From Alphaproteobacteria bacterium (GTDB taxonomy: Bacteria; Pseudomonadota; Alphaproteobacteria; Rhizobiales; Hyphomicrobiaceae), in contig JAHJSN010000070.1 in assembly GCA_018830445.1 (NCBI GenBank), positions 1 through 58,306 of the forward strand: a stretch of DNA of 58,306 bases, in the 5' to 3' direction. Positions 9 through 54,881 of this stretch are shown here, one piece after another; the stretch's first letter is position 1; every line of letters starts with the position of its first letter. The notes below the pieces were generated by a model that saw nothing but the letters and a program-made list of their open reading frames with translations, was not told the origin of the DNA and searched no databases. The position numbers and the translations under genes are program-made.

Positions 9-154
9 CTAGTGCTCCGAACTCTGACATATGGTTCCCTGCCGGGAACCTGAATGTCAGCCCGGAACACTAGGCAACCTGCTGATTGTGTTCTGGATTC
101 ACAAACATTTGACGACCTCCACCCGGGAATCAAATGTTTGATCCAGAACACTAG
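9..154. repeat. CTAG-bounded double-hairpin repeat, copy 1
   Basis: Two adjacent long palindromes bounded by CTAG. The first (9-73) folds on CTAGTGCTCCG against CGGAACACTAG, then CTGACAT/ATGTCAG (24-30, 54-60), then GGTTCCC/GGGAACC (33-39, 44-50). The second (88-154) pairs GTGTTCTGGAT (88-98) with ATCCAGAACAC (141-151) and CAAACATTTGA (102-112) with TCAAATGTTTG (130-140). A near-identical copy is at 9208-9366. No coding potential. It looks like a small non-autonomous mobile or REP/MITE-like repeat; the CTAG could be a duplicated target or part of the terminal inverted repeat, which one window cannot separate. Confidence 0.85.
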
Positions 155-5366: not shown

Positions 5367-6578
5367 TCAGCGGGGTGTGTTGTGAGCGCTCCGGCGGCTG
5401 CGTTGGCGTCGCTGCTTGTCGGCGTAGGCGCGCGAGGCGCGCTTGCGTTTGAGGGCAAGGTGCCTGCGGCAACTGGCGAGTCTCAGATTGCATTTTACGC
5501 CAACATTGGGAACCGTTTCAGCGCGACCGGCGGCGTTGCCGCGCGTGCCCGATTTTTTTGAACTAGAGGCTCGCGCGAGCGCTGCCTGGCGGCGGCGGAG
5601 GATCTGTCTTGGCGGCGCCTTCAAGAGGGTGAGGAGCCTTCTTTCGGTTTCGCTCAGCGTTGACCACCGGGACGGCTGGCTGACAATGCTTTGTAATTGC
5701 TCCTCCACTTCGAGAAGCTGGGCGGTTTGCCCGCAAGCGGCTAAAGGGCGCGATGACAGGCCCACCTCCTGGGGGCGACCGTCCGAGATCGTGTAGCGGC
5801 CATCGCAAACGCTGATCGATGGTGGTAGGCGGGTGGTCTCGAAGGAGTCGTAGCCTTGCTTGAGGTTGTTCCAGAACGGCGCCCATTCGCTCGTCCGGTA
5901 CTTGTCGAGGTTCGCTTCGGTCATGCGGAAGGGGAAGACGTGGATTGGCACGTGGCGCTGACCAGCTTTCAGCGCCTTCTGCACCAGTCCGAAAACTTCA
6001 TTGATGACGTCGTTGGTCATCGCGTAGCAGCCGACCGACGAGCAGCCGCCGTGGATGAGGATGTAGGAACCGGTGCGCAGCAGCGAACGGTCGAAGACGT
6101 TGGGGAAGCCCAGGTTTAGAGAGCGCGGCCAGCGGCCGGAGCGGTGCATCTGTCGGCGGGTGACGGTGTAGAAGCCCTCGGGGGCCTGCTTGTCGCCTTC
6201 GGCCAGCTTCGGTCCGAGCGTGCCGGACCAGTTGCAGATGGGGTAGGTCGCGAACAGGAGGTAGCGGTCGTTCCGCTGGATCCACATCTCGAGTTCGGAT
6301 TCTTCCTTGAAGATGCGGATGAGGACCGGGCTGCCTTCACTCAGGTCGAGTTTTTCCAGCCGGGCGGCCGTTTCGGCGATTTCGGGAGTGCCGGGAAGAG
6401 GCAATGCGCCACGAGCCGCCAGTCGCTGCCGCTCGATACGGTCAGGCGCTGCGTCCAGCAATTCAATCGTAAGGGCTTGCGCGGGGAAGACAAACGCTGG
6501 GGTGTGGGCCGAGACGAGCGCCAGAAGCGCAATCATGCAGCCGAGCAGGCCGCGCCGCTGGAGCGGGCCGCGAAGCAT
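5367..6578 (-). CDS. L,D-transpeptidase-fold (YkuD/YafK-like) exported protein 1
   Basis: Member of the YkuD family, in which a cysteine forms 3-3 or protein-peptidoglycan links, or cuts them (YafK/DpaA type). A hydrophobic signal segment at about 11-35 points to periplasmic location. The YkuD domain spans roughly 85-215 and ends in the catalytic motif IHGGCSSVGCYAM (His 176, Cys 184). A Trp/Phe-rich stretch follows, and the last 80 residues are a strongly basic Arg/Lys/Ser-rich tail not shared by the two paralogues upstream. ATG 6578 is chosen because it opens a proper signal sequence with GGAG upstream; a longer frame to 6677 adds 33 residues with no such features. 403 residues. Confidence 0.85.
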   Translation of the reverse strand: MLRGPLQRRGLLGCMIALLALVSAHTPAFVFPAQALTIELLDAAPDRIERQRLAARGALPLPGTPEIAETAARLEKLDLSEGSPVLIRIFKEESELEMWIQRNDRYLLFATYPICNWSGTLGPKLAEGDKQAPEGFYTVTRRQMHRSGRWPRSLNLGFPNVFDRSLLRTGSYILIHGGCSSVGCYAMTNDVINEVFGLVQKALKAGQRHVPIHVFPFRMTEANLDKYRTSEWAPFWNNLKQGYDSFETTRLPPSISVCDGRYTISDGRPQEVGLSSRPLAACGQTAQLLEVEEQLQSIVSQPSRWSTLSETERRLLTLLKAPPRQILRRRQAALARASSSKKSGTRGNAAGRAETVPNVGVKCNLRLASCRRHLALKRKRASRAYADKQRRQRSRRSAHNTPR

Positions 6579-6796
6579 CCGTATTCGTCTCCAGAGGGCT
6601 TTGGTGGATATGTTCAAAGTCCTGTCCTGTATGGTCTCAAGGCCGTCGCATGCATTATAAATCGGCAATGCGAACACTTCGTGATTTTTCCTGTCATAGG
6701 TTTACCAAGTGGCGTCGATATGTTCCCGGCGGCTGTTAATGGCAAACTACAACGTATTCGTTCTGCGGCCGAACGACACCACTTTGAGAAGTAAAA

Positions 6797-7708
6797 TCAG
6801 TTAGTTACCATGGAATTGTCAGCCTTGCAGCTGCGCGTGAGGCTATGGGTGCCGTCGCTTCCAGGACTGCCCGGCGCGGCCGTATAGCGCTTGCCGCAAA
6901 CATCGACCTCAGGGGGAATTCCTGTCTCTTCGAACAGGTCGTAGGGGGCTTTCAACTGCGACCAGAACGGGAAGAGTGGGTCGTGGCGGCGTTCCTCAAG
7001 ATTCGAATCGCTCAGACGGAACGGTAATGCCTGGACTTGGAACCGGGACTGGCCGCCATCGAGGGCGGCGGTGACCAGCTTCCAGATCTCGTCGACAACC
7101 TGGTTGGTCATGGCGTAGCAGCCAATCGACGAGCAGCCGCCGTGGACCATCAGGAAACTACCGGTGCGGCCATGGCTGCGGTCGTAGAGATTGGGGAAGC
7201 CCAGGTTGAAGGACCGGTGCCAACGGCTGTTCGGATTGAGCTGGCTCCTCGTCACCGTGTAAATGCCTTCGGGGGACTGGTGGTCGCCCTGCTTCAACTT
7301 GGGGCCGAGGCGGCCGGAATACAGGCAGATCGGATAGCTGGCAAAGCGAACGAAGCGCGTGTCCTTCTTCAGCCAGATCTCCAGTTCGAACTCGCGTTTG
7401 AAAATGCGCATGAAGATAGGTGCGCCAAGCTCAAGGCCGGCAGTCTTGAGGCGGTCGTCCAAGGAGGCAAGATCGGGCGTTCCCGGGAGTGTCCAGCCGA
7501 ACGCCCAATAGGTCGAATGCCAAAGGCGTTTTATCGCCACCCGACGGCTGTCGTCGCTGGCGATAAAGCCGCCGATCCGCTTGCCGAGCAGAGTTTCGAG
7601 CTTCGATTCCAACAGTGCGGCGCCGGCAATCATGGCTGCGGCAATCGCCAGGAGCGCCACCGAGGCGAGGAAACCCGAGGCCCGCTGTTTAAATCCTGTT
7701 GCCGCCAT
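6797..7708 (-). CDS. L,D-transpeptidase-fold (YkuD/YafK-like) protein 2
   Basis: Second of three tandem YkuD paralogues. One hydrophobic segment at about 12-33 is followed by a polar stretch and looks like an uncleaved anchor or Sec signal; the YkuD domain covers about 95-230. The active-site motif VHGGCSSIGCYAM places His 189 and Cys 197. Conserved blocks shared with its neighbours include FMRIFKREFELEIW, SYPIC, SPEGIYTVTRSQ and FNLGFPN. The start ATG 7708 has GGAAGG just upstream; the 15-residue longer frame to 7753 lacks this. 303 residues. About 218 bases separate it from paralogue 1 and 119 from paralogue 3, so each may have its own promoter. Confidence 0.85.
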   Translation of the reverse strand: MAATGFKQRASGFLASVALLAIAAAMIAGAALLESKLETLLGKRIGGFIASDDSRRVAIKRLWHSTYWAFGWTLPGTPDLASLDDRLKTAGLELGAPIFMRIFKREFELEIWLKKDTRFVRFASYPICLYSGRLGPKLKQGDHQSPEGIYTVTRSQLNPNSRWHRSFNLGFPNLYDRSHGRTGSFLMVHGGCSSIGCYAMTNQVVDEIWKLVTAALDGGQSRFQVQALPFRLSDSNLEERRHDPLFPFWSQLKAPYDLFEETGIPPEVDVCGKRYTAAPGSPGSDGTHSLTRSCKADNSMVTN

Positions 7709-7827
7709 ACTGCCTTCCAATGCGTTACGCCGGGGCCAACGCGTGGATGGCACGCGTCAGCCGAATCGTGGCGCGATTAGGAGGGGAAGAACGCGTCAGG
7801 TTTGGGGCGGCCGCAGGGGCGGCGCGG

Positions 7828-8823
7828 TTACAAGCCCAATGCGGCAAGCGGGTTGCTGGTGGCAGCGGGCGCGCGCGACTGATTGGTCGCTGTATCGCTC
7901 ATGCCGAGGCCGTAGGGAACCAGCTTCGGGATACCGTTGCTGGCGACGGTGCGCATCTTGGAACCCGGTGCCTTGATCGTCTCGAAGGCGATCTGCTCTT
8001 CGGAGGGACGCGGAACGAACGGTTCGATGCTCGGCTTCGAGAATCGCGGGCAGGCGCCGGCAGGGTCGAGGGAGCGGTTCGAGGGCCAGGCGACATTGAC
8101 CACGTATTTCTTCTGGCAAACCACGACGTTGGGCGGAATGCGGTGGGCTTCAAAATGGTCGTAGCCTTCCTTCAGCGTTTGCCAGAAGCGGTACCATTGG
8201 TGCTTCTTGTGGCGCTCCATGTTGGCTTCGGTCATGCGGAACGGGAAGGCGTGAACCTGGAAGTTTTCCTGGCCGTTCCTGAAGGATTCGCGGGCCAGAG
8301 CGTAGATTTCCTCGATCAGCGCGTCGGTCATAGCGTAGCAGCCGGCCGAGCGGCATTTGCCGTGAACCATCAGGAAGTCGCCGGTGCGGTTGCGCGCCTG
8401 ATCGTAGGCGTTGGGGTAGCCGAGGTTGAAGGCTATGTGGAACGAAGAGTTGGGGTTCATCTGGTGCCTGGCGACCGTGTAGAACCCTTCCGGGGCCTGC
8501 TTATCGCCTTGCACAACCTTTGGGCCCAGATCGCCGGACCAGTTGCAGATCGGGTAGGTCTTATAGTGGTAGAAGCGGCCGTCGTCGCGGGCCTTCCAGA
8601 CCTCTAGCTCGGATTCTTCCTTGAAGATTCGGATGAACATCGGGGCGCCGGGCTGCATGCCCTTGCGGCCGAGCAGCATCACGGATTCCTTGGAAAGCGG
8701 CTGTTCTGAAGGTGGCAGTTGAGGCGCGCCAGCGCAGGCCGCCAACAAGGTGGCAGCAGCTACAATCATCAAAATAGCACGGAAGCCTGACAGGCCCCGT
8801 TGTCCCAAGCGGAACGAATTCAT
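7828..8823 (-). CDS. L,D-transpeptidase-fold (YkuD/YafK-like) lipoprotein 3
   Basis: Third YkuD paralogue. The N-terminus is a lipoprotein signal: charged start, hydrophobic stretch and lipobox LAAC with the lipidated cysteine at 30. The catalytic motif is VHGKCRSAGCYAM (His 154, Cys 162), differing from the other two in carrying Lys and Arg where they have Gly and Ser. The domain runs about 60-200; a Pro-rich C-terminal extension with no recognised domain follows. ATG 8823 has AAGGGG upstream and opens directly on the signal; the frame to 8877 is 18 residues longer. 331 residues. Probably the first gene of the tandem set. Confidence 0.87.
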   Translation of the reverse strand: MNSFRLGQRGLSGFRAILMIVAAATLLAACAGAPQLPPSEQPLSKESVMLLGRKGMQPGAPMFIRIFKEESELEVWKARDDGRFYHYKTYPICNWSGDLGPKVVQGDKQAPEGFYTVARHQMNPNSSFHIAFNLGYPNAYDQARNRTGDFLMVHGKCRSAGCYAMTDALIEEIYALARESFRNGQENFQVHAFPFRMTEANMERHKKHQWYRFWQTLKEGYDHFEAHRIPPNVVVCQKKYVVNVAWPSNRSLDPAGACPRFSKPSIEPFVPRPSEEQIAFETIKAPGSKMRTVASNGIPKLVPYGLGMSDTATNQSRAPAATSNPLAALGL

Positions 8824-9207
8824 CTCGTAGTGCCCCTTAACGAACGCCAACAACAATCGAATCAGCATCGTTAACAAAACGTTAACATCTGAAAAAAGAG
8901 TTGGCGATAGCCTCGGTGATCAACTTTTTCCCTGATTTGCAATCTGGCAGGCGAATGCGGCGTTGTCGGGGCGTTCGACGCGCTGGGGATCTGCTCCAAT
9001 TGATTGAAACGAAAGGGTAAATGTTGGGCGTGGGGGAGTTGCGCGGTCGGCGACGTTCGGTGGGGCGGGCGCAATCTGGCAGAGGGCATATCCGGCGGCA
9101 CGAGAAAGGGTAGGGCGGGGTTAGCGCAGCGCAACCCGCGGCAAGGGGCACAGCATCCGCGAACTGGTTCGGTGGATTTCGCGGCGCACTATCATCCCCA
9201 CAAACTG
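8824..9207. other. Intergenic region upstream of L,D-transpeptidase 3
   Basis: No gene is supported. Directly upstream of the lipoprotein start lie two CGTTAAC units (8869-8875 and 8880-8886) with an 11-base repeat distance, that is, on one face of the helix. They could be a regulator site but are too short to be sure. Confidence 0.4.
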
Positions 9208-9366
9208 CTAGTGTTCCGACTCTGACATATGGTTCCCTGCCGGGAACCTGAATGTCAGCCCGGAACACTCAGCCCGGAACAACAGGCAACCTTTTGATTG
9301 TGTTCTGGATTCACAAACATTTGACGACCTCCACCCGGGCATCAAATGTTTGATCCAGAACACTAG
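9208..9366. repeat. CTAG-bounded double-hairpin repeat, copy 2
   Basis: Second copy of the element at 9-154, same orientation, with both hairpins intact and the CTAGTGTTC / GAACACTAG termini. It is 13 bases longer because the segment CAGCCCGGAACA is tandemly duplicated at the junction between the two hairpins, which also destroys the internal CTAG present in copy 1. A few point differences lie in the loops and the junction. Confidence 0.85.
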
Positions 9367-34655: not shown

Positions 34656-35024
34656 TTCTTGTCTCTCCTGGCGCAGCAGGCCCCCGATTGCAAGGGCGCG
34701 CGCCGGTTCTGGTGTGTCGATTATCAAAACGAATAGCCCGCCGGCGCGGCCAGCGGGCATGTGAGGCGGGTTCTACCGGACAGAGGCCCGTGGCGTCAAG
34801 GGGGGAGCAGCAAGCAGGGCGACATCAGGCGGCAAATCGAAGTTGCTTCGGAACCGGACAGGAGTAAGCGGATTATTAACCAAGGCGGGGTAGCCTTTGG
34901 GCAGTCTCTCAGTTGTCTCAATCCCCTGACAGCCTCACCGGCAGTCATGGGTCCGCGTTTGGGTCCGCGTTTGGGTCCGCGTTTGGGCCCGCGTTTGGGG
35001 CCCGCGTTTACGGGAAGTTGCGTA
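34656..35024. other. Intergenic region between divergent rpmB and the DUF3108 gene
   Basis: About 370 bases holding the promoters of both genes. The only conspicuous structure is the tandem repeat at 34949-35009, immediately upstream of the DUF3108 ribosome-binding site. Confidence 0.5.
34949..35009 (+). repeat. Five tandem 12-bp units before the DUF3108 gene
   Basis: Units GGGTCCGCGTTT (three times), GGGCCCGCGTTT, and a 13-base last unit with one extra G. An ATG at 34947 would read through the repeat in frame as MGPRLGPRLGPRLGP, but the real start at 35025 has its own ribosome-binding site and a signal peptide, so the repeat most probably lies in the leader. Confidence 0.85.
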
Positions 35025-43753: not shown

Positions 43754-46700
43754 TCAGGCGTATACAAAATCATTCGCGTGCAGATCGGCAAGTGCCACTC
43801 CGAGTAAGTGAACACTGTTGTCGATATCGAATGTGATCAGTGTACTTCCATCTTCTTCTATTGCAAGTGCCGTTACTTCGGCCAGGCTCGTCAGCCCCAG
43901 CGCGGATACGTCAAGCTTGTCGTAGCCCGACACGCCCCATTCGAAATCGAATATCGTGTCGTGGCCGCCGCCGGTGGCGAGGATGAAGGTGTCTGAACCC
44001 TGGTCGCCAATGAGGATGTCGTCACCGGCACCGCCGTCGATGAGGTCGGTTCCCGTGCCGCCGCTCAACGTATCGTCCCCGAGCCCTCCTGAAAGGATGT
44101 CGTTGCCGGCATCGCCATGGAGGAGATCGGCGCCTTCACCGCCATCGAGGGTATCGTATCCGCCGCCGCCGGACAGGAAGTCGTTGCCGTTGCCGCCGTT
44201 GATGGAGTCGTCGCCGGATTCGCCCTGCAAGAGGTCGTCGCCGTCGCCACCGTCGATGGTGTCGTTGCCGTCGCCACCATAGGCATCGTCATTGCCTGCG
44301 CCTCCGACAAGGGTGTCGCCGCTCTTGCCGCCAAACAGGATATCGGCTCCGTCATCGCCGAACAGGACGTCCACCCCGGAGCCGCCATCGAGAAGATCGT
44401 TGCCGGCGTTGCCATAGAGGGCGTCGCCATTGTTGCCGCCAATCAATGTGTCGTGACCATTGCCGCCGTGAAGGACATCGTTGCTGTCGCCGCCTTCCAG
44501 GGTGTCCTGGCCGTCACCGCCGAAGATTTCGTCGCTGCCGCCGAGGCCCAGGATGTGATCCCAGCCGGCCGTCCCCATGATCGTATTGTTCAATTCCGTG
44601 CCGGTGATCGCGTTGACGCCATTGATGACGATGTCAACGGTGGCGCTGGCGCTTTCGTCGGTTCCATCCGTTGCGGTGTAGGTGAAGGATGCCGTTCCGG
44701 TATAGCCCGCGAGCGGAGTGAAGGTGACGGTGCCGTCCGTGTTGAGGGTGACGGTACCGTTCGTGGCGCCGGCGACGGATGCAATGGCGAGGCTGCCGCC
44801 ATCGGGATCGTTGTCGTTGCCGAGGAGATTGGATGCGAGGAAAGTAAAAGGCGCATCTTCGGCGATGTCGACGGGACCGTCGGCGACCGCGACAGGCGCT
44901 GCGTTTGCCGGACCGACGAGCAAGGAAACGCTCGCGGTCGATGTGGCGCCGGAGGGATCGGACGCGGTGTAGGTGAAGGTGACGATGTCCTCGGTGCCGG
45001 CGGGAACGACGATGTTGATATCGCCGTTGGCAAGCAATGTCGCTGTGCCGAGGGATGGCGTGCCGATGGCGGTGATGGTCATGGTGTCGCCGTCAAGGTC
45101 GCGGTCGTTGTCGAGGAGGATGCCCGCGGGAACTAGGATGTCGTCGCCGTAGACGGTGAGGCCGCTGTCGGCGACGGCCTGCGGAGCTGCGTTCGAGGAT
45201 ATGCCGGCGAGCGCGGCAAGCGCGTCGATCCCGGCGCGAGCGAGGGCCGGGTCCTGGTCGAAGACGATTTCGTCAATCCCTGCGCCGATCAATGTCGTGG
45301 AGAAGTAGTCCTCGACAGTAATGTCGCTGCCGTCGGCGAGGAGGACATGCAGATCATCGGCGTTCATAGCGTGGCGCAGGATGGTGACGTCCGACTGGGT
45401 CAGGCCGGGCAGGTAGAGGCGGTCTATGTCCGTTGCCGGGCCGGTGTCGCGGATCACGTCGTTACCGTCTCCGGCAGAATAGACGAAGGTGTCGCTGCCG
45501 CTGCCGCCGTCGAGGGTGTCGTTGCCGGCTCCGCCCCTCAGCGTGTCGTCGCCGCCGGCACCATTCAAGGTGTTGGCCGCGTCGGTGCCGGCAAGGGTGT
45601 TGTCGAGTGCGTTGCCGGTGCCGGAAATCGCGCCGCCGGCGAGGCTAAGGCTCTCAACGTTGGCGGTCAAAGTGAAGTCGATGAAGGCGGTGACGCGATC
45701 CTGACCGCCAGCTGCCGCCTCGATGACGACGTCGCCTGCGTTGTCGACGACATAGCCATCGTCGCCGCTGCCTCCGTCAAGCGTGTCGCTACCGGTGCCG
45801 CCGTCGAGCAAGTCGTTGCCGTCGCCGCCGGTCAGCTGATCGTTGCCGCCGCCGCCCAGGATATCGTGATCGTCGGCGGTGGCCGCAATGATGATGTCAT
45901 CGCCTGCGGTGCCGGAGGCGATCTGCGGGTCGGTGCCGCCGGTTTCATCATTGTGGTTGGGGTTCGAAGTGGGGGCCTGCGGGCGCGGATCGAGAGGAGC
46001 GAACATTGTGCCGCCATTGGTCATCAAGTTCACGGCCGCGTCGAAGTTCGGGTAGGTCGTCGCACCGGCTCCGTTAGAGAGGGTAATGTTGGTCCCTTCA
46101 CCTGGGTCGTGGAACTCAATGCCGAGGTCGCCGACTTGGAAATCGGTTATTCGGATCGTGGTTTCATCATCAAGAATCACGAGATGGGTTTGGGTGAAGA
46201 GCACTTGGCCGTTCTCACCCAGGATGGGGACTTCCTCGGTTTCACCCTGATAGAGATTGATGATCAGGTCGTCGCCGTCGAGCCAGTATTCAATCGAGCC
46301 GGCGAAATCGATGACGCCTTCGGTGAAATTGTTGCCGAAAAAAAAGTCGTCTTCAAGCCGCCACTCGAAACTGAGCACGTAACCGTTGTCGTGAAGGTCT
46401 GCGTATGTGCCCATCGCTCCGAGCAGGGGGAGGAGGTCAGAACCTTCGAACTCGCCGACGCCCTGGCCGCCGGTAAAGAAGTCGTAGGCGACGAACAACC
46501 GGTCGTCGGACTCTGCGTCATCGATGATGAATTCGACGTTGCCGATGGCATCCTGGGTCGCGGTGAGACTGGAGAGGATGAAAGTGTCGGCGCCAGTGCC
46601 GCCGATGGCGAGGGTCTGGCCACCTGTAGAGACGATCGTGTCGTCGCCTGCGCCGCCTTCGAGGCGGGCGGTGTGTCCGTCAGCGGTGGTCCCGGAGCCG

Positions 46701-47920
46701 GCGGCGGCAAGGCGGCCATCGATCAGGTCGTTACCGCTGCCGCCATCGGCGCCGCGCATGTTCGCGGACAGGTAGATGCGGTCATTCGACTCGGTTCCAA
46801 CGATCCATTCGGCATCCTCGATCCACAGCCCTTTCTGATCGGATTCGGTGACCTGAGCGAAGACCGTGCTGGCGTTCACCGCGTTGACGAGAATCCCGCT
46901 GCCCTCAATGTCGGCGAAATCAACAACGTCTCCCTGGTCGTCGGTGGGGGCGGCGGAGGACTGCGAGCCGAGGTGAAGGTCAAGGCCCTGGCGGATCAGA
47001 TCGACGCCGGGGCCGAGCTTGATGAAGTCGTTGTTGCCGCGCCATTCGAGGCGCTCGATGGACAGAAGCGAGTCTTCGCCGGTGGAGTGTTCCACGACGA
47101 ACTGGGCGTTGTAATGCTCGATATGGTCGATGGACGGGAGCCGGATGTAGAATGGGCCGATCTGATCGTAGATTACGGTGTCAATGCCGTCCTTGACATA
47201 AAGGAGGTTGAGAACGCCGCCGTGGTAGACGTGCGAACCTTTCGACCAGTTGAAGGTGTCGTCGCCGCTGCCGCCGTAGAAGCGTTCGGTCTGAGAAACG
47301 TCGTCGGTGCCGAAGAAGGTATCGGTGCCGCCGCCGCCGAACAGCGAGGTGAAGCCGTTCTCAATGCGCATCTCTTCGCCGGAATTTGTCCCGAGCAGGG
47401 TTTCGCGGCCCGGCGACAGACGTAGTCCGAATGGCAGATTGGTGGAAAGATTGGTGCCGGCATAGTGCAACAGAGATGCGATCAGGGACGTCGAGTTCAG
47501 CGCGGAGTTGGTGGTCAAGGGCAGGGCAACGGCAGTGTAGGGGTGGGCGGCCGCATCGATCCTGCCGGCGAACGAGGCGATGGTCGCCCAGCTGGCGTCG
47601 GCATCGACGAATGGGAGCGCGCGGCTGCCGCGCTGTTCGGGCGTGCCGATGATGCCGACGAGCTCGGATTCGGTTGGAGCGCGGTAGCTTGTTCCATCAT
47701 AGATGGCGTTCAACGTCGCGAGGGTTGTTGTGCCGTTGGCCCCCAGGACGCCGAGGGTCGGGGTGGGGCTGCCGCCGAAGGTCACGCGGGCACCCTCGAT
47801 GCCGAACCAATAGGCCTGATCAATGAATGAAGCAGGCTCGAAAGTGAGGAGTAGGTGGTCACCTCCGAAAAATCCGATGAAACCTTCTATTGGAGTTCTT
47901 TCAACCCTAACGCGTGGCAT
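43754..47920 (-). CDS. RTX-type calcium-binding secreted protein
   Basis: 1388 residues, probably secreted by a type I system. Blocks of glycine/aspartate nonapeptide (GGxGxDxLx) calcium repeats occur at about 195-225, 375-450, 668-820 and 1105-1315. Two cadherin-like tandem repeats (VADGPVDIAEDAPFTFLASNLLGNDNDPDGG and its partner) lie at about 910-1105. The end (DTIFDFEWGVSGYDKLDVSALGLTSLAEV ... ALADLHANDFVYA) fits an uncleaved C-terminal RTX secretion signal. There is no N-terminal signal peptide. The first 350 residues match nothing I recognise. GGAGGG lies 7 bases before the ATG. No ABC/HlyD/TolC secretion genes are in the window; adhesin or matrix protein is a guess. Confidence 0.9.
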   Translation of the reverse strand: MPRVRVERTPIEGFIGFFGGDHLLLTFEPASFIDQAYWFGIEGARVTFGGSPTPTLGVLGANGTTTLATLNAIYDGTSYRAPTESELVGIIGTPEQRGSRALPFVDADASWATIASFAGRIDAAAHPYTAVALPLTTNSALNSTSLIASLLHYAGTNLSTNLPFGLRLSPGRETLLGTNSGEEMRIENGFTSLFGGGGTDTFFGTDDVSQTERFYGGSGDDTFNWSKGSHVYHGGVLNLLYVKDGIDTVIYDQIGPFYIRLPSIDHIEHYNAQFVVEHSTGEDSLLSIERLEWRGNNDFIKLGPGVDLIRQGLDLHLGSQSSAAPTDDQGDVVDFADIEGSGILVNAVNASTVFAQVTESDQKGLWIEDAEWIVGTESNDRIYLSANMRGADGGSGNDLIDGRLAAAGSGTTADGHTARLEGGAGDDTIVSTGGQTLAIGGTGADTFILSSLTATQDAIGNVEFIIDDAESDDRLFVAYDFFTGGQGVGEFEGSDLLPLLGAMGTYADLHDNGYVLSFEWRLEDDFFFGNNFTEGVIDFAGSIEYWLDGDDLIINLYQGETEEVPILGENGQVLFTQTHLVILDDETTIRITDFQVGDLGIEFHDPGEGTNITLSNGAGATTYPNFDAAVNLMTNGGTMFAPLDPRPQAPTSNPNHNDETGGTDPQIASGTAGDDIIIAATADDHDILGGGGNDQLTGGDGNDLLDGGTGSDTLDGGSGDDGYVVDNAGDVVIEAAAGGQDRVTAFIDFTLTANVESLSLAGGAISGTGNALDNTLAGTDAANTLNGAGGDDTLRGGAGNDTLDGGSGSDTFVYSAGDGNDVIRDTGPATDIDRLYLPGLTQSDVTILRHAMNADDLHVLLADGSDITVEDYFSTTLIGAGIDEIVFDQDPALARAGIDALAALAGISSNAAPQAVADSGLTVYGDDILVPAGILLDNDRDLDGDTMTITAIGTPSLGTATLLANGDINIVVPAGTEDIVTFTYTASDPSGATSTASVSLLVGPANAAPVAVADGPVDIAEDAPFTFLASNLLGNDNDPDGGSLAIASVAGATNGTVTLNTDGTVTFTPLAGYTGTASFTYTATDGTDESASATVDIVINGVNAITGTELNNTIMGTAGWDHILGLGGSDEIFGGDGQDTLEGGDSNDVLHGGNGHDTLIGGNNGDALYGNAGNDLLDGGSGVDVLFGDDGADILFGGKSGDTLVGGAGNDDAYGGDGNDTIDGGDGDDLLQGESGDDSINGGNGNDFLSGGGGYDTLDGGEGADLLHGDAGNDILSGGLGDDTLSGGTGTDLIDGGAGDDILIGDQGSDTFILATGGGHDTIFDFEWGVSGYDKLDVSALGLTSLAEVTALAIEEDGSTLITFDIDNSVHLLGVALADLHANDFVYA

Positions 47921-54572: not shown

Positions 54573-54881
54573 AAATTACCGTCGAGCTTCGGCATTGGTG
54601 TCGCGATGGTCCAGGATTGATCATTGCGGATGCCCTTTGACGTGGTCTGGTCAACCGGAACGCATACCTTAGCGGGAATAGCGTCAGTTCGGTGAGTGGA
54701 ATGCCGGGCAGAGAATTCCTTTGGCGCCTTCACAATAGAGTTCCGATTCCGACACCTGGTGCCCAAGCGTTTGATCGATATAACTCGTTTAAGCATAGCG
54801 CTTTTGCGAGCTTGTTGGAACCAATATGCCAAGGTGCGGAAGACCCGCTGGACATAGGGCCGGGTGCCAGCGGTCGAGCGC
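54573..54881. other. Intergenic region between the DUF937-like gene and the crotonase gene
   Basis: About 310 bases. Two overlapping short open frames exist, one per strand; neither shows a ribosome-binding site or protein-like composition, and I see no repeat or terminator. Confidence 0.4.

Follow-up and report, generated by a model that had tools for sequence, protein, structure and literature searches.

Results

The stretch of DNA analysed here (58,306 nucleotides, hereafter the window) makes up the entire contig C43 in the 213-contig, 4.15 Mb assembly of a member of the Hyphomicrobiaceae, the completeness of which is 97.5%. It contains two copies of a palindromic repeat, of which copy 1 sits at the contig edge, starting at base 9. 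The features that bear on the repeat are the following:

9..154, plus strand: repeat copy 1, order B-A, 146 bases, outer-end CTAG at 9-12 and 151-154
9..73, plus strand: hairpin B of copy 1, outer arm of IS630 right-end type
74..87, plus strand: linker between hairpins B and A of copy 1, 14 bases
88..154, minus strand: hairpin A of copy 1, right (outer) arm, read on the minus strand, of IS630 left-end type
96..100, plus strand: GANTC (GATTC) by the bulge in the inner arm of hairpin A, copy 1
127..131, minus strand: copy 1, A outer end, GANTC (GATTC) at its positions 24-28, the arrangement of IS630 left ends
9208..9366, plus strand: repeat copy 2, 159 bases, internal duplication
9218..9222, plus strand: copy 2, B outer end, GACTC at its positions 11-15, the arrangement of IS630 right ends
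54735..54776, plus strand: probable decayed relic of the repeat family, by its rank (4) in the end-matrix scan described below and by eye

Elsewhere in the window, three adjacent minus-strand genes (5367-8877) have repeats in common; the first gives a weak LdtF/DpaA/YafK match below cut-off, the other two a YkuD L,D-transpeptidase domain. A 1388-aa RTX protein with 14 calcium-binding nonapeptide stretches and cadherin-like domains is encoded at 43754-47920 on the minus strand, and the 12-mer TGGGTCCGCGTT stands in four head-to-tail copies at 34948-34995.

Read on the plus strand, the repeat runs from CTAG through hairpin B, the linker and hairpin A to CTAG. Hairpin B is formed by CTAGTGTTCCGACTCTGACATATGGTTCCC and, nearby, its near-complement with CACTAG at the end, while hairpin A starts with GTGTTCTGGATTCAC and ends with GATCCAGAACACTAG. 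The inner arm of hairpin A has no CTAG and carries a bulge, and that of hairpin B is shifted by one base. Copy 1 folds with -40.2 and -43.3 kcal/mol on its two strands (DNA parameters; z about -10), which none of 200 shuffles equalled, and CTAG is present at all four outer ends of the two copies. The double hairpin with CTAG termini described in the first-pass annotation is thereby confirmed, as is the absence of genes, since neither copy contains a gene-like ORF; a mechanical 128-aa frame (8882-9268, minus strand) extends into copy 2. The same annotation had the copies share almost every base. They do lie at the positions it gave, but copy 2 has an internal insertion, its 159 bases being due to a duplication at the junction of hairpin B and linker, and identity to the family consensus is 97.3% for copy 1 and 89.3% for copy 2 (gap counted). 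The relic at 54735-54776 consists of a B outer arm, with GATTC at position 11, fused to an A-type arm as found in relatives (CAAGCGTTTGATC), and is probably a trace of older activity of the family.

Copy number and distribution

The core of hairpin A (29-mer, up to 3 mismatches) occurs at 228 places genome-wide and that of hairpin B (37-mer, up to 3 mismatches) at 226, while the reversed patterns occur at none; CTAGTGTTCYGG is found 314 times, against once in the control. The two copies of the window thus belong to a large family, as expected of the mobile repeat that had been proposed. Taking each of the 226 cores as a whole copy of ~145 bases, the repeat makes up an estimated ~33 kb, or ~0.8%, of the 4.15 Mb genome. 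The 44 full copies collected measure 143-161 bases, with 27 of exactly 145; nine have 158-161 bases, so the type of copy 2 is a sub-type of the family.

The 146-mer is present in 8 of 59 genomes searched, the own genome, with 286 first-look candidates, counted. Within the genus, G003 has 43 candidates and at least 18 matches, G008 has 4 and G004 has 1, and the five other same-genus genomes (of 8) gave no match; the same-family genomes G011, G024, G025 and G030 hold 1 or 2 matches each. In plasmid records, no match was found at E 1e-5. A search with hairpin A in the form it takes in relatives hits eight stretches of named genomes, five in 'Alphaproteobacteria bacterium BRH_c36', two in other alphaproteobacterial MAGs and one in a Hyphomicrobium MAG. 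On one G003 contig (C97, L051), at least four full 130-base units, each with both hairpins, stand in tandem.

A second double-hairpin family with CTAG ends (CTAGTGTTCCGGTTC.../...GCTACACTAG) is found in the own genome, G003, G008 and G011 (L118, about 1436-1605; L120; L121; L026:1250-1520). Its architecture is the same, its arms are others, and the copies read have no GANTC at position 11 or 24.

Pairing in hairpin A is kept among genomes. In 16 sequences from the own and related genomes (duplicates removed), 8 of 22 pairs have changed on both sides and 93.2% of cells are paired, and none of 500 shuffles reached either value, although sequences akin by descent may exceed shuffles even without structure. 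Sliding the partner by one base lowers pairing to 43% or less. A 22-row alignment, with four copies doubled and one row badly aligned, gives a similar picture.

Insertion sites

CTAG stands at the left end of 36 of the 44 full copies and at the right end of equally many, and the flanks beyond it have no further bases in common (17 loci viewed; bases tallied in 31 copies, at 27 flanks on the left and 27 on the right). Two filled sites (L029 and L025) have orthologues in the same-genus genome G004, aligned over about 500 bases with 72% and 74% identity, and both are empty, with a single CTAG precisely at the junction. These are the empty sites that the first-pass annotation had proposed to look for, found where shared orthologous copies would have spoken against mobility. 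Junction alignments at other compared sites, such as L010 and L011, are too poor to read.

In the own genome, the TAG of the element closes frames of 357 and 400 codons at L029 and L025, respectively, and the L029 orthologue in G001 has TTAA at the junction, hence a TAA stop in the same frame. At L014, the compared relatives have other stops (ATAG, GTAG, TTAG and others) and no CTAG. We counted such frames at 84 ends, each with 300 or more flanking bases; these ends come from 74 distinct pieces and are no random sample of copies. An upstream frame of at least 150 codons is stopped by the TAG of the element at 17 of them, compared with 4 and 2 ends for the other frames, whereas the same count at CTAG outside elements gives 33, 55 and 30 of 326 sides (Fisher p = 6e-5; background stretches from large contigs, open frames serving as proxy for genes). 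This bias is consistent with a loss of gene-breaking insertions and a tolerance of those that restore a stop codon.

CTAG is under-represented in the genome sample (204 against 527 expected from dinucleotides), where it is not the rarest tetramer. The idea that the copies have saturated the available CTAG sites is weakened by 170 free CTAG in 458 kb, which correspond to roughly 1500 free sites against 226 copies. On the right flank of L013 and L027, the element adjoins another dispersed sequence starting with GAGCCTGTCCGAGTAGTC, which also follows CTAG in G013 (L126, L139) and is perhaps another mobile element of CTAG sites.

IS630-type ends and the resident IS630 element

The first eight IS630 elements collected from plasmids of alphaproteobacteria all have CTAG at both termini and similar sequence at their ends. 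From the 16 ends of eight IS630 elements on plasmids of other alphaproteobacteria we built a matrix, CTAG omitted, and scanned both strands of the window with it. Ranks 1 to 3 are three of the four outer ends of the repeat copies (33.0, 32.8 and 29.9), followed by 14.8 at rank 4, the relic; the fourth outer end (copy 1, left) has a one-base insertion and comes out of register at rank 6 (12.2). For comparison, the 16 IS630 ends themselves score 16.5-32.8 when their own element is excluded. The match between IS630 ends and outer ends spans about 28 bases. With scores of -4.0 and -9.3, the inner ends fall below zero; only the outer ends thus seem functional, and the hairpin pair forms one unit. 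The inner arms do not look like functional ends, to judge from spacing spoiled by base shifts and, in one arm, the missing CTAG.

The genome contains a single DDE_3 (IS630) match over the cut-off, an open 370-aa gene on contig C137 (G000:C137) that scores 275.5 bits against NCBIfam transpos_IS630 (cut-off 100) and has no related solved structure at E 1. It lies in an element of 1174 bases, from CTAGTGTAGCGG to CAGAACACTAG, with the ends CTAGTGT/ACACTAG (CTAGTGTAGCGGCGCC... and, read inwards from the opposite side, CTAGTGTTCTGACTCCAACGCTTGGTTCCC), so that a candidate for the insertion sequence that the first-pass annotation proposed to look for does reside in the genome. Its transposase gene is closed by the TAG of the flanking CTAG. 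At the edge of contig C150 there is another, distant IS630 piece. The same use of the terminal CTAG as stop codon is seen in the IS630 elements L057, L114, L115, L231, L232, L234, L235 and L263; in L108, L112 and L113 the transposase gene stops short of that point. IS870 reportedly needs CTAG to complete its stop codon.

The right end of the resident element agrees with the B outer arm of the repeat at 20 of 26 positions and its left end with the A outer arm at 16 of 26, against 24 of 26 for the B end of a repeat copy in G003. Given this weak match to the own copies and the better one in G003, another IS630 element, lost or unassembled, may have driven the burst. Among relatives with repeat copies, a match to the resident transposase was absent from G003, G004, G008, G024, G025 and G030 and amounted to three short pieces in G011.

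GANTC sites in the ends

IS630 elements close to the resident one have a GANTC site at a set position in each end. This close group comprises 18 elements from alphaproteobacteria and 10 on IMG/VR contigs without host assignment, and was bounded after the ends had been inspected. GANTC occupies positions 11-15 in 25 of 25 right ends (middle base C in 9, T in 7, G in 6, A in 3) and positions 24-28 in 27 of 28 left ends (T in 17, G in 7, A in 3; the exception is L252). No right end was found for L233, L255, L256 and L262. Four rows are omitted from these counts, namely L254 and L256 (doubles of L253 and L255) and L261 and L265, of which only right ends are at hand, with GACTC at 12 instead of 11 and GATTC at 11, respectively; with all four restored the counts are 29 of 30 (left) and 27 of 28 (right). 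These counts are not independent, since the elements are related by descent. The right-end rule was set after the first nine IS630 elements and was obeyed by the later members of the close group, L261 deviating by one base, but it failed in 2 of 4 distant alphaproteobacterial elements (L238 and L241); the left-end rule, set after 16 elements, was borne out by 11 of the 12 non-duplicate elements that followed.

The ends of the close group have a mean pairwise identity of only 56% and 62%. Beyond CTAGTG, the left-end columns conserved to at least 95% are exactly G24, A25, T27 and C28; right ends conserve C19, T26 and C28 in addition to GA-TC. The resident element has two GANTC in its 1174 bases, one per end, and in 15 IS630 elements listed, five have only the two end sites and ten have one to three extra.

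The repeat keeps the same arrangement. Allowing a slack of one or two bases, GANTC is found at B 11-15 in 37, at A 24-28 in 38 and at both in 31 of the 44 full copies. In the window each copy has lost one of its two sites, as an extra A breaks the B-end GACTC of copy 1 and the A-end site of copy 2 now reads GATGC. A-ends from several genomes have GANTC in 15 of 22 cases, with all four middle bases present (10 of 16 without doubles, by eye), and B-ends in relatives keep it in 6 of 8. The genome sample has fewer GANTC than its base composition predicts (858 against an expected 1597). The genome also encodes a CcrM-like methylase, with a RAMA domain of 62 bits and 6pbd (named CcrMI) as best solved relative (E 6e-155); among 14 control genomes, the RAMA domain was found in Caulobacter only.

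Outside the close group the picture differs between the two positions. The position-11 GANTC is present at both ends of 5 of 8 elements from other bacteria (actinobacteria, Azotobacter), among which two Streptomyces elements have identical ends, while the left-24 site is absent from all eight and from four distant alphaproteobacterial elements. The distant plasmid elements L238-L249, kept apart for their different-looking ends, a choice made after viewing these, have left-24 GANTC in 0 of 12, and position-11 GANTC in 6 of 12 left and 7 of 11 right ends. Elements of the host's own family, L079 (G033) and L080/L088 (G010), with a transposase about 52% identical and kept apart likewise, have no left-24 GANTC and GATTC at 11 in one end each; L082 has no such ends.

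Discussion

The repeat is, with little doubt, a MITE of the IS630 (Tc1/mariner) family whose outer ends are IS630 recognition ends. It has IS630-type ends, no transposase gene and a length below ~200 bases, and a related open transposase gene is present in the same genome, all of them traits of IS630-family MITEs. The first-pass annotation had proposed a REP/MITE-like non-autonomous element; its MITE half stands and its REP half falls, with Y1 matches in the genus confined to pieces in the own genome and in G003, and ends that match IS630. Transposition in trans by a CTAG-target transposase, likewise proposed, is favoured by the ends, and the resident 370-aa transposase, outside the window, is a candidate mover on sequence grounds.

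Several other origins were weighed. Hairpin dimers, high copy number, intergenic position and a tetranucleotide at the hairpin foot would all suit a REP/BIME or REPIN-type repeat moved by a RAYT (HUH Y1 transposase), and an origin of this kind is nonetheless extremely improbable. In the own genome, Y1_Tnp is matched only by one piece at a contig edge (PF01797, 109 bits), whose 1.8 kb locus holds no end resembling CTAGTGTTC with 2 or fewer mismatches over 12 bases, and among the eight same-genus relatives Y1 matches are confined to two short pieces in G003. A RAYT gene could have been seen, since weaker Y1 matches (26-42 bits, mostly in frames of 190-227 aa) did surface in other genera, and yet none flanked by the repeat was found in the eight relatives or in the own genome, where at 97.5% completeness one may have been missed. 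Moreover, GTAG-tagged REPs have 20-40 bases (PMC3733652), against ~145 bases with CTAG at both ends here, and it is IS630 ends that the repeat matches. That the MITE belongs to another DDE family, one that duplicates the four bases of CTAG/YTAR (IS5, IS701, IS481 or IS21 type), is hardly more credible, even if MITEPsy1 of Pseudomonas syringae ('IS5?') duplicates CTAG or YTAA (PMC3189936). The match to IS630 ends over about 28 bases stands against it; the transposases compared were of the rve_3 type, and the five rve_3 loci of the genome (IS3/IS481-type) have no pair of matching ends, only one stray end match each, with 2 mismatches, at L032, L035 and L036. CTAG followed by TGTTC...GAACA would presumably also suit an IS481-like end.

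A further view is that the hairpins are kept for a host function, as terminator, RNA element or methylation-linked site, with copy number secondary. The covarying pairs of hairpin A and the share of copies directly behind stop codons fit with it, but covariation may also stem from hairpin correction during replication, and no Rfam family matched anywhere in the window at gathering scores. Above all, five of the eight same-genus genomes gave no match where another has at least 18, and the orthologous site is empty in two cases, which argues against a fixed site-specific function and makes this view unlikely, if less so than the two preceding ones. An open-access search for rhizobial RIME elements, another candidate, found no literature on RIME1.

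For the IS630 MITE, we propose that an IS630 transposase acting in trans would bind one left-type end (A outer) and one right-type end (B outer), excise the unit and join it to the TA of a CTAG, rebuilding CTAG at both boundaries, while the inner arms would keep the two ends in hairpins apart, each end paired to its complement. The transposase of ISY100, an IS630 family member, alone performs excision and strand transfer with TA duplication in vitro (PMC2170065), and a preference of IS630 for the TA in CTAG is stated in the title of Tenzen and Ohtsubo 1991 (cited in PMC2170065). Going by the way IS630 is known to move, the duplicated target is probably TA inside CTAG rather than four bases; of the 4-base CTAG-type target inferred at first, the CTAG is borne out at nearly all insertions. 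Both duplications look alike here because nearly all insertions are at CTAG. Since CTAG occurs at TAG stops, a good part of the persisting copies sits on a restored stop codon. Growth in copy number under cut and paste is usually explained by repair of the donor from the sister chromosome.

In open-access literature, judged by title or start of the abstract, no published repeat matches this one. The nearest known system in mechanism is RUP of Streptococcus pneumoniae with IS630-Spn1: a 107-base unit present in 108 copies, intergenic, in TA-containing targets, whose ends resemble those of IS630-Spn1 as the ends of our repeat resemble IS630 (PMC2229807). RUP differs in host and sequence, the available part of that source describes neither a double hairpin nor GANTC for it, and the target of our repeat is nearly always CTAG. 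Correia/NEMIS elements are likewise short, are bounded by TA and by terminal inverted repeats and fold into strong hairpins, but their stem pairs the 5' with the 3' end instead of forming two hairpins (PMC2229807), and their sequences are unrelated. REP/BIME and CGTC repeats are palindromic, intergenic and often dimers, yet have short stems and an unpaired GTAG or CGTC tag, with no IS630 ends described in the portion of PMC3733652 at hand; this also links GTAG repeats to RAYT and gives no known enzyme for CGTC repeats. Among autonomous elements, ISAzs31 (L112), ISAr1 (L234) and IS870 (L263) resemble the repeat in CTAG at both ends, CTAGTG with similar sequence, and GANTC at left 24 and right 11; they differ in their length of about 1.15 kb and their transposase gene, which stops at the TAG of the terminal CTAG in ISAr1 and IS870 and 14 bases before the CTAG end in ISAzs31.

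In form, the nearest relatives are the CIR (CcrM-associated intergenic repeats) of Caulobacter, Brucella and other alphaproteobacteria, about 110 bases long with TA termini, which like our repeat have two hairpin arms with a linker and a conserved GANTC and are absent from genes (PMC2229807). The traits that define CIR (two hairpin arms, linker, TA termini, GANTC) are all found in our repeat, a likeness in description; the mobility of CIR is described as unexplained (PMC2229807). Their GANTC lies at a terminal loop (PMC2229807), against set outer-end positions and a place beside the bulge here. GANTC in IS630 ends is not reported in the available part of PMC2229807, which came from the literature on GANTC and IS630. 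While an IS630-family MITE is ordinary in kind, the two-hairpin build and the pinned CcrM sites are unusual.

The pinned sites suggest that transposition by these IS630-type ends is coupled to methylation. With one GANTC per end, the ends would be hemimethylated just behind the replication fork, and transposition would be switched accordingly. Dam sites act as such a switch for IS10 and IS50. A methylase site predicts just such a free middle base between constant GA and TC, although contact with a dimeric protein could yield the same. The position-11 GANTC of elements from other bacteria speaks against the CcrM reading: their hosts are not known to have CcrM, and this site may hence be an old protein contact. 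The lack of the left-24 site in these elements, in the distant alphaproteobacterial ones and in L079 and L080, the missing GANTC in the second double-hairpin family and the common descent of the elements counted weigh on the same side. On balance, that the IS630 elements of alphaproteobacteria and the MITEs derived from them are under CcrM cell-cycle control, with CIR being IS630 MITEs of the same kind, is a proposal we put forward tentatively, at somewhat less than even confidence.

In summary, our analysis names a likely mover and target for a repeat that covers about 0.8% of its genome. It also exposes a conserved trait of an insertion sequence group, in which a CcrM methylation site is pinned in each transposon end while the remainder diverges. 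The placing at stop codons indicates how, by a CTAG target, an element enters a compact genome and leaves its genes unbroken. If methylation gates the ends, alphaproteobacterial transposition would be tied to the replication cycle, and the reason for GANTC in CIR repeats would become directly testable; CIR being IS630 MITEs of the same kind, if true, would explain it.
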